This document shows, piece by piece, positions 42,894 through 50,887 of a stretch of 53,495 nucleotides of DNA. The translations under genes were made by a program, and so were the position numbers. The notes beneath the pieces are model-generated. The model saw only the letters and a list, made by a program, of their open reading frames with translations. It had not been told where the DNA came from and did not search any database. Position 1 is the stretch's first letter; each line of letters opens with the position of its first letter. This stretch comes from Alphaproteobacteria bacterium (lineage in GTDB: Bacteria; Pseudomonadota; Alphaproteobacteria; M2410). The DNA lies in the NCBI GenBank assembly GCA_030614785.1, contig JAUWTJ010000022.1:1-53495 (forward strand), in the 5' to 3' direction.

Positions 42894-42999
42894 TGTCATC
42901 CTCGGGCCGACCGGAGGGAGGAACCGGGGATCTTCTCCCGGCGCTTCTCGGGCTGAGAGAAGATCCCCGGCCGATGCTTGCGCATCGCCGAGGATGACA
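42894..42999. repeat. Palindromic element between convergent aapP and DUF2817 gene
   Basis: TGTCATCCTCGG (42894-42905) and CCGAGGATGACA (42988-42999) are perfect inverted arms. Inside, CCGGGGATCTTCTC and GAGAAGATCCCCGG form a second stem. TTTTTT follows on the plus strand, so it could also end aapP transcription. Confidence 0.88.
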
Positions 43000-48458: not shown

Positions 48459-48594
48459 AGTCCTTCTCCCTCCGGGAGAAGGTGCCGCGAAGCGGCGGAT
48501 GAGGGGCGATGCTGCAGCACATCGAGCGTGTTGTGGCATCGGTCCCTCACCCGTCAGGCTGCGCCTGCCACCCTCTCCCGGAGGGAGAGGGACT
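48459..48594. repeat. Mosaic palindromic element, copy C
   Basis: Outer arms AGTCCTTCTCCCTCCGGGAG and its inverse. Left apical hairpin GCCGC-GAA-GCGGC (48484-48496), right hairpin CAGGC-TGC-GCCTG. Lies between convergent ends of the CurA-like and DAHP synthase genes. Confidence 0.9.
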
Positions 48595-50204: not shown

Positions 50205-50302
50205 CGGTCTCAACTTTCAATAAATTACCCAATACGGCCAATCTCTATACCGGATCGTGCGCAAATGCGCCAGTGCTGCGGTGCAGCAGAGTTAATGGTG
50301 GG

Positions 50303-50357
50303 TGACAAACCCCGTAACATTGTCGCCCCGCACGTGATGCGGGGCCTCAGGCCCGGG
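50303..50357. repeat. R1 repeat, left copy (flanks GIY-YIG gene)
   Basis: 55 nt, 52 of 55 identical to 50753-50807 and in the same orientation. Contains the palindrome CCCCGCA-N5-TGCGGGG and ends CAGGCCCGGG. Confidence 0.9.
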
Positions 50358-50371
50358 GGCAGACGAAGCAC

Positions 50372-50662
50372 TCACTGATTGAGCTTCAGGTAGAGGTCGA
50401 GCCAATCCGGATTAGTGGTCTTGATCAGGTCTTCTTTCCAGACTCGCTTCCAGCGCTTGATCTTCTTCTCGCGCTCAAGGGCGATTTGAATATCGTTGTG
50501 AGCCTCAACGTAGACGAGCTTCTTTAGATTGTACTTCTTCGAAAACCCTTTGGCGAACCCTTCTCTATGTTCCCAGACACGCCTTGCAATATCGCTGGTT
50601 ACGCCGACATACAGCGTTGAGTGAACCTTGTTGGTCAGTATGTAGACGTAGTAGATCTTCAT
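50372..50662 (-). CDS. Small GIY-YIG nuclease domain protein
   Basis: 96 residues from MKIYYVYILTN. The frame extends to 50770, but those extra 36 residues come from the repeat sequence upstream. GIY-YIG motifs: YYVYI, TLYVGVTSD, the Arg of RRVWEHREG and the Glu of ALEREKKIKRW, so catalytic residues look intact. It resembles the short UPF0213/YhbQ-type proteins, whose role is unknown. 55-bp repeats flank it on both sides, 450 bp apart, so the unit may be mobile or repeat-associated. Confidence 0.85.
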   Translation of the reverse strand: MKIYYVYILTNKVHSTLYVGVTSDIARRVWEHREGFAKGFSKKYNLKKLVYVEAHNDIQIALEREKKIKRWKRVWKEDLIKTTNPDWLDLYLKLNQ

Positions 50663-50720
50663 ACCTGTGATTGTAGCGAAAGCGCTGATGCTACACCAGA
50701 ACTGGATTGAACTGGAAAAT

Positions 50721-50758
50721 GGTGCCCCGAGATCCTGGCTCGGAGGCCGGGATGACAA
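50721..50758. repeat. Rb repeat, copy 1 (fused to R1 right copy)
   Basis: GGTGCCCCGAGATCC, a variable middle (TGGCTCGGAGGCC), then GGGATGACAA. Same outer blocks as 50842-50878 in the same orientation. It runs directly into R1 at 50753. Confidence 0.75.
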
Positions 50759-50807
50759 ACCCGGTAACATTGTCGCCCCGCACTTGATGCGGGGTCTCAG
50801 GCCCGGG
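50753..50807. repeat. R1 repeat, right copy (flanks GIY-YIG gene)
   Basis: Direct copy of 50303-50357 with three mismatches. Lies upstream of the GIY-YIG gene start. Confidence 0.9.
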
Positions 50808-50841
50808 CGTTGTCGTCGATTTCGATATGTGTGTCCGGCGC

Positions 50842-50878
50842 GGTGCCCTGAGATCCCGGGTCAAGCCCGGGATGACAA
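50842..50878. repeat. Rb repeat, copy 2
   Basis: GGTGCCCTGAGATCC, then CGGGTCAAGCCC, then GGGATGACAA. CCCGGG-TCAAG-CCCGGG forms a small hairpin. It ends 9 nt before the gor stop. Confidence 0.75.
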
Positions 50879-50887
50879 TTGAACAGA

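Follow-up and report, generated by a model that had tools for sequence, protein, structure and literature searches.

The window analysed here, a stretch of 53,495 nucleotides of alphaproteobacterial DNA, carries a small GIY-YIG nuclease gene among near-identical repeats, and this raises the question of whether gene and repeats belong together and, if so, what the one does to the other. The gene, located by its open reading frame, its Pfam match and its gonococcal homology, lies at 50372–50662 on the minus strand and encodes a single-domain protein of 96 residues. Its motifs are intact, as had been proposed: the GIY-YIG domain is complete (PF01541, E=2e-14) and all of the residues that are invariant in the subfamily are present (Y18, G20, R28, E31, H32, E65, N84, W87 and D89). 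GIY-YIG was the only domain found in the domain search, and an HUH domain with a catalytic tyrosine of the IS200/IS605 type is absent. The best matches among solved structures are proteins of the UPF0213/YhbQ type (1zg2 and 1ywl), which are similar in fold and size; however, the matches are weak (E of 4e-4 and 0.02), and these proteins constitute another subfamily that lacks the C-terminal NPxWxDLY motif. A much closer relative is found in Neisseria gonorrhoeae, with 38 of 89 residues identical (43% over 89 aa, E=2e-29). The phage records searched contained no homologue.

The gene is situated in the gor–aroG intergenic region (50214–50887), which is about 675 bp long in this genome. The original prediction described two 55 bp direct repeats (R1) at 50303–50357 and 50753–50807, identical at 52 of 55 positions and 450 bp apart from start to start, and a second repeat type (Rb) close by. 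The direct repeats are as described and can be extended to 58 bp (50300–50357 and 50750–50807, both on the plus strand, 54 of 58 positions identical), with a self-match score of 46, whereas none of 30 Markov shuffles of the region scored above 15. Rb does occur, as a perfect copy at 50850–50876 and a degenerate one at 50729–50756, both on the minus strand, but it is not a separate type; R1 and Rb contain sequence variants of one palindrome family in opposite orientations. There are four variants of this palindrome, which we refer to as A, B, C and D, sharing a GTC tag, a stem of 7–8 bp, a loop of 5 nt and a CTC tail (consensus GTCRYCC..stem-CTTGA-stem..GGRYCTC). D (50322–50348, in the left R1) and B (50772–50798, in the right R1) are on the plus strand, and A and C are the perfect and degenerate Rb copies respectively. 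A, B and D were recognised by the repeat pattern and by folding, and form clean hairpins of 8 bp (A and D) or 7 bp (B), whereas C, which was read from the sequence, is decayed and gives no clean hairpin. Copies A and D have a TTGTC tag, an 8 bp stem and a 5 nt loop; the stem of A starts with complementary AT (GTCATCCCGGG..CCCGGGATC), and B and D have GC instead.

Along the plus strand the order is D(+), gene(−), C(−), B(+), A(−), such that D and C oppose each other across the nuclease gene, and B and A oppose each other across a 51 bp spacer to form a pair without a gene (50772–50876). C and B are separated by 10 bp (ACCCGGTAAC; junction consensus ACCCSGTAAC), and ahead of D stand the final 9 bp of a reverse repeat and then the same 10 bp junction with one base changed. 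The right copy of the 58 bp direct repeat thus consists of the end of C, the junction and B, and the left copy consists of the end of a lost reverse repeat, the junction and D; the direct repeat arises because two forward–reverse units stand in tandem, and is their junction. We therefore rejected the possibility that the R1 copies are a target-site duplication or transposon ends, and the proposal that they flank the gene as the borders of a unit does not hold. What look like the functional ends of the gene unit are two inverted copies, at 50322–50348(+) and 50729–50756(−).

We surveyed the genome from which the window derives (148 contigs, 3.86 Mb) with the tag-and-stem pattern GTCRYCCYS..SGGGRYCTY and obtained 46 matches, mostly in inverted pairs of two families, P1 and P2, with none in a reversed control. 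R1 was considered as a high-copy dispersed repeat and rejected as such, blastn giving only the two window copies; the family surfaced when the pattern was relaxed to tag plus stem. P2, to which the window palindromes belong, is small, with about five loci, and includes four opposed pairs without a gene on contigs C28, C48, C73 and C119, with spacers of 54, 54, 54 and 55 bp (range 51–55 bp with the window pair included). P1 has fourteen opposed pairs with spacers of 23–27 bp and a CTT tail in place of the CTC of P2; one of the fourteen, a gene-less inverted pair, is located in the window between convergent genes (42895–42998), where it folds into one long hairpin (z −7.7). The inner hairpins of P1 are conserved without sequence conservation: 28 of 33 have a stem of at least 5 bp, with 21 different stem sequences, versus 5.7% when arms are swapped between copies. 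An inverted repeat-like stretch (CCTTCTCCCTCCGGGAGAAGG..CCCTCTCCCGGAGGGAGAGG) is also present in the window at 48463–48592, adjoining a class II DAHP synthase gene; repeats of this type are often dispersed in proteobacteria.

Besides uvrC, this genome has five small GIY-YIG genes. A second gene (C37:5816–6094) is the partner of P1, and is flanked by a pair with a 39 bp spacer and by a further degenerate copy. A third (C44:3681–4107), of a GYTASRRP-type subfamily, occupies precisely the interval between two opposed members of a palindrome family with 35 copies (CATCCTGAGG..TCTCGAAGGA), suggesting that the gene–repeat partnership may extend to several GIY-YIG subfamilies. The remaining two, on C91 and C143, adjoin an 8-copy palindrome family (CCCTGCGCTCTWCGAGCTTCGGG repeats); read by eye, they are also near tRNA-like stretches. 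With these three layouts added to those of P1 and P2, all five small GIY-YIG genes stand beside a palindrome family, with four families in total.

The original prediction regarded a GIY-YIG enzyme in such a role as unusual, but the nuclease subfamily is present in 122 of 385 genomes of the class. We collected 80 homologous loci from named genomes with flanks of up to 10 kb; most are from alphaproteobacteria, with others from Rickettsia, Massilia, Kangiella, Omnitrophota, Parcubacteria, a Clostridia bin and further groups, although assignments based on single-contig MAGs need caution. Perfect palindromes with stems of at least 8 bp occur at 6.69 per kb within 100 bp of the gene and at 0.40 per kb at 2–10 kb, and restricting the count to the intergenic sequence of the same loci gives 7.5 per kb near the gene versus 1.4 per kb away from it. 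For GTC-tagged palindromes the density in the gene flanks is about 21 times that in control regions (165 in 160 flanks, 71 in 1442 control regions), bearing out the expectation that repeats are enriched at GIY-YIG homologues; they are not scattered independently of these genes. The two sides of the gene also resemble each other, with a best left–right match score of at least 18 at 49 of 75 loci compared to 4 of 590 controls, and where repeats on both sides could be oriented the arrangement is forward–gene–reverse at 33 of 48 loci and reverse–gene–forward at just one. A T or C precedes the GTC tag, and the tail is CCA at most loci. Whether the loop is CTTGA or a 4 nt type follows the protein tree (9 changes versus 20.7 when shuffled, with none of 500 shuffles as low), albeit for a tree built from 96 columns with many unresolved forks, in which near-copies help the clustering.

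A similar association is seen at the level of whole genomes. The pattern GTCAT..CTTGA..ATCCA has 1359 matches in the 385 class genomes and 4 in the reversed control, and at least two copies are present in 53 of 122 genomes with the gene versus 25 of 263 without it (p=2e-13, uncorrected for phylogeny). We conclude that the GIY-YIG gene and the repeats are, with near certainty, functional partners. The repeat also occurs in 44 of the 263 genomes in which the gene was not detected. Several genomes (G269, G278, G318 and others) contain 40–120 repeats of the CGTC type and no detected nuclease of the window subfamily; these resemble orphan REP populations, and the nuclease could have diverged or been lost.

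Comparison with Neisseria suggests a family for the enzyme and also an alternative role. The gonococcal homologue lies among eleven copies of the dRS3 type; in the record used, its reading frame has no in-frame ATG at the usual start. Chenal, Veyrier and colleagues (Nat Commun, 2025) reportedly named a GIY-YIG family Ssn that cuts single-stranded DNA site-specifically at a Neisseria repeat, and the same study is said to describe an effect on transformation and variety among the homologues. The window protein shares with Ssn a small single-domain GIY-YIG architecture and homology to the Neisseria member, and its gene, like that of Ssn, is beside copies of a dispersed repeat (P2, which surrounds the gene and recurs at four loci elsewhere); the dRS3-like repeat with its GTCAT tag is likewise comparable to the window repeats, although the latter end in CTC rather than CC or CCA and form a small family of forward–reverse pairs. 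The 43% identity to a homologue set among dRS3 copies suggests that, by homology and layout, the window gene is best filed with the Ssn family. The enzyme could alternatively be a guard of genome dynamics, cutting incoming or exposed single-stranded DNA at the repeats and so tuning transformation or recombination nearby, with the repeats spreading by other means; such a role is said to apply to Neisseria Ssn/NTS. This is the most serious of the alternatives: the gonococcal homologue is within a dRS3 array, and a gene beside its own repeats and conserved hairpins are accommodated equally well. We nonetheless regard it as less likely than not, because by itself it leaves unexplained the forward–gene–reverse unit, the correspondence of one gene to one repeat family, and the insertion of gene and repeats as a block.

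Evidence for this last point comes from orthologous sites. The gor–aroG neighbourhood is widely kept in the class, and the nuclease is absent from it in all 29 other genomes compared, such that the gene–repeat order is not fixed at this locus; in three genomes of the same family the gap is 107–127 bp, with neither gene nor repeats. A repeat left behind, as the original prediction envisaged, was sought at gor–aroG within the window's own family and none remains, these relatives being too distant, but it is seen in Sphingobium. There the nuclease gene region lies beside fnrL on seven plasmids, with forward–gene–reverse order in TomMM7A, and in two of three sister plasmids (TomTYG64, and TomTYG74 in degenerate form) the same site has a single hybrid palindrome, its left half derived from the forward repeat and its right half from the reverse one; this hybrid could have arisen by excision or slippage over the shared ACCCCGGG. 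The third, TomTYG72, has no palindrome at the site. In Azospirillum lipoferum 4B a nuclease gene flanked on either side by an opposed repeat pair separates sufB from sufC, and in A. ramasamyi, A. oryzae and Azospirillum B510 the corresponding interval is about 90–130 bp without gene or repeat, between flanks that are 94.7–96.3% identical; with three relatives empty, parsimony argues for insertion in A. lipoferum. These closer comparisons, in Azospirillum and Sphingobium, come from plasmids.

Loss within the unit is also observed. Separate loci in Sinorhizobium have gene remnants in which the interior is deleted and both gene ends and the repeat are kept, and in S. meliloti Ak57 (upstream of 4001) an interior-deleted gene copy with both repeats is in tandem with an intact nuclease unit. 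A pair of S. medicae loci ('beta') was examined as a clean empty site and rejected, the strain difference being a deletion with AGCC microhomology, and for the Rhizobium CIAT894 locus no relative covering both flanks was found. No target-site duplication is visible in the Azospirillum or Sphingobium comparisons, in which the flanks have diverged, and there is no clean transposition product at the loci compared. We consider it very likely that, in some lineages, gene and repeats were inserted, and lost, together as a single block. The mobility that had been proposed is therefore upheld as presence or absence of gene and repeats at orthologous sites; for the enzyme as its driver, or as the driver of the spread of gene-less pairs, we would lean slightly to the negative.

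The Sphingobium allele bears on a further alternative, that of a homing-type selfish gene in which the gene is copied into an uninterrupted palindrome that its product has cut, the palindrome being an insertion site and not a part of the element. GIY-YIG is a classic homing-nuclease fold and the gene-less allele has one palindrome at exactly that spot, but this explanation is unlikely given that filled sites contain two complete hairpins rather than two halves, that the prevalent form is a pair at fixed spacing with no gene, and that the relatives of A. lipoferum have no palindrome at the site. That the hairpins serve as terminators, or for autoregulation, in the mRNAs of the nuclease and its neighbours, without DNA mobility, is in keeping with strongly folding pairs between convergent genes such as that at 42895–42998; it predicts neither one dispersed family per nuclease gene nor block insertion at new sites, and we consider it very unlikely. 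Least probable of all, and disfavoured, is that CGTC-type repeats collect in any relaxed intergenic space in which a short, horizontally moving gene also lands, for although these repeats are intergenic and common in the class and some genomes have them without the gene, the enrichment remains when intergenic sequence from the loci themselves serves as the control (7.5 versus 1.4 per kb), and the orientation bias, the left–right matching of repeat types and the association with the protein tree would be left unexplained.

The window repeats resemble a described class of repeats. Di Nocera et al. (2013) defined the CGTC-tagged REPs, including Neisseria dRS3 and Rickettsia RPE-4 and RPE-6, as having a terminal CGTC, TGTC or CCTC tag, an 8–9 bp stem starting with complementary AT, a 4–5 nt loop and an unpaired tail that is mostly CCA, and as occurring mainly as opposed dimers and mainly in alphaproteobacteria (PMC3733652). 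The window repeats match these in tag, stem length, loop length and opposed dimers (the window pair and, at fixed spacing, four pairs of P2 and fourteen of P1). They differ in the tail, which is CTC in the window family and CTT in P1, and P1, unlike CGTC-tagged REPs, carries a hypervariable extra hairpin. The 2013 survey reported the lack of a dedicated transposase (PMC3733652), whereas here a GIY-YIG nuclease adjoins such repeats. The resemblance to RAYTs and REPs noted in the original prediction is strongly supported: as in RAYT/REPIN systems, an enzyme gene lies between opposed palindromes, gene-less pairs with fixed spacers are dispersed, there is one family per enzyme, and the layout recurs across phyla. 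However, RAYTs (TnpA-REP) have an HUH tyrosine transposase domain and repeats with a GTAG tag, and the window enzyme is an unrelated GIY-YIG protein beside repeats with a GTC tag. By this analysis the window system would work like RAYT/REPIN, yet it is not one, lacking both the HUH domain and the GTAG tag.

The interpretation that we consider likely is that the GIY-YIG nuclease of the window is site-specific, is devoted to the palindromes around its gene, and acts as follows. The unit would be forward repeat, nuclease gene and reverse repeat, about 430 bp in all, and the gene-less pairs of about 105–125 bp would be related to it in the way that REPINs are related to RAYTs, or MITEs to a transposon. 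When the repeat becomes single-stranded, at a replication fork or during repair or DNA uptake, it would fold into a hairpin; the nuclease would read the hairpin together with the unpaired GTC tag and nick there, both the cleavage and its position being postulated, and repair or recombination at the nick would copy, move or delete the pair. The partnership, the conservation of the hairpins, the preferred orientation and the gain or loss of whole units are directly supported, and it is quite likely that the protein recognises and cuts a single-stranded hairpin. Counting against the interpretation are the small size of P2, the decay of copy C, the repeats in genomes where no gene was detected and the microhomology deletion in S. 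medicae; gene-less pairs and solo palindromes can also arise from ordinary slippage at palindromes. More tentatively, and somewhat doubtfully, GIY-YIG nucleases may be the dedicated mobilisers of the CGTC-REP superfamily, in which case the RAYT/REPIN arrangement would have been invented twice, independently, with several subfamilies each driving its own palindrome population in one genome (P1–P4) and reading hairpin shape and tag rather than stem sequence.

The link between enzyme and repeat is in itself less novel in view of the reported Ssn work; the unit structure, the REPIN-like pairs and the partnership across several families may be the new parts. Few small repeats are as common in alphaproteobacteria and Neisseria as the CGTC-tagged palindromes, for which the defining survey came upon no enzyme (PMC3733652). 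Very probably, the window nuclease is the enzyme so long missing for these palindromes, which it would recognise and may also spread. With matched nuclease–repeat pairs, several of them in one genome, and empty sites in close relatives, the question of how such repeats spread becomes testable both biochemically and genetically, and if the interpretation is correct, the pairing would also provide nucleases able to recognise hairpins in single DNA strands.
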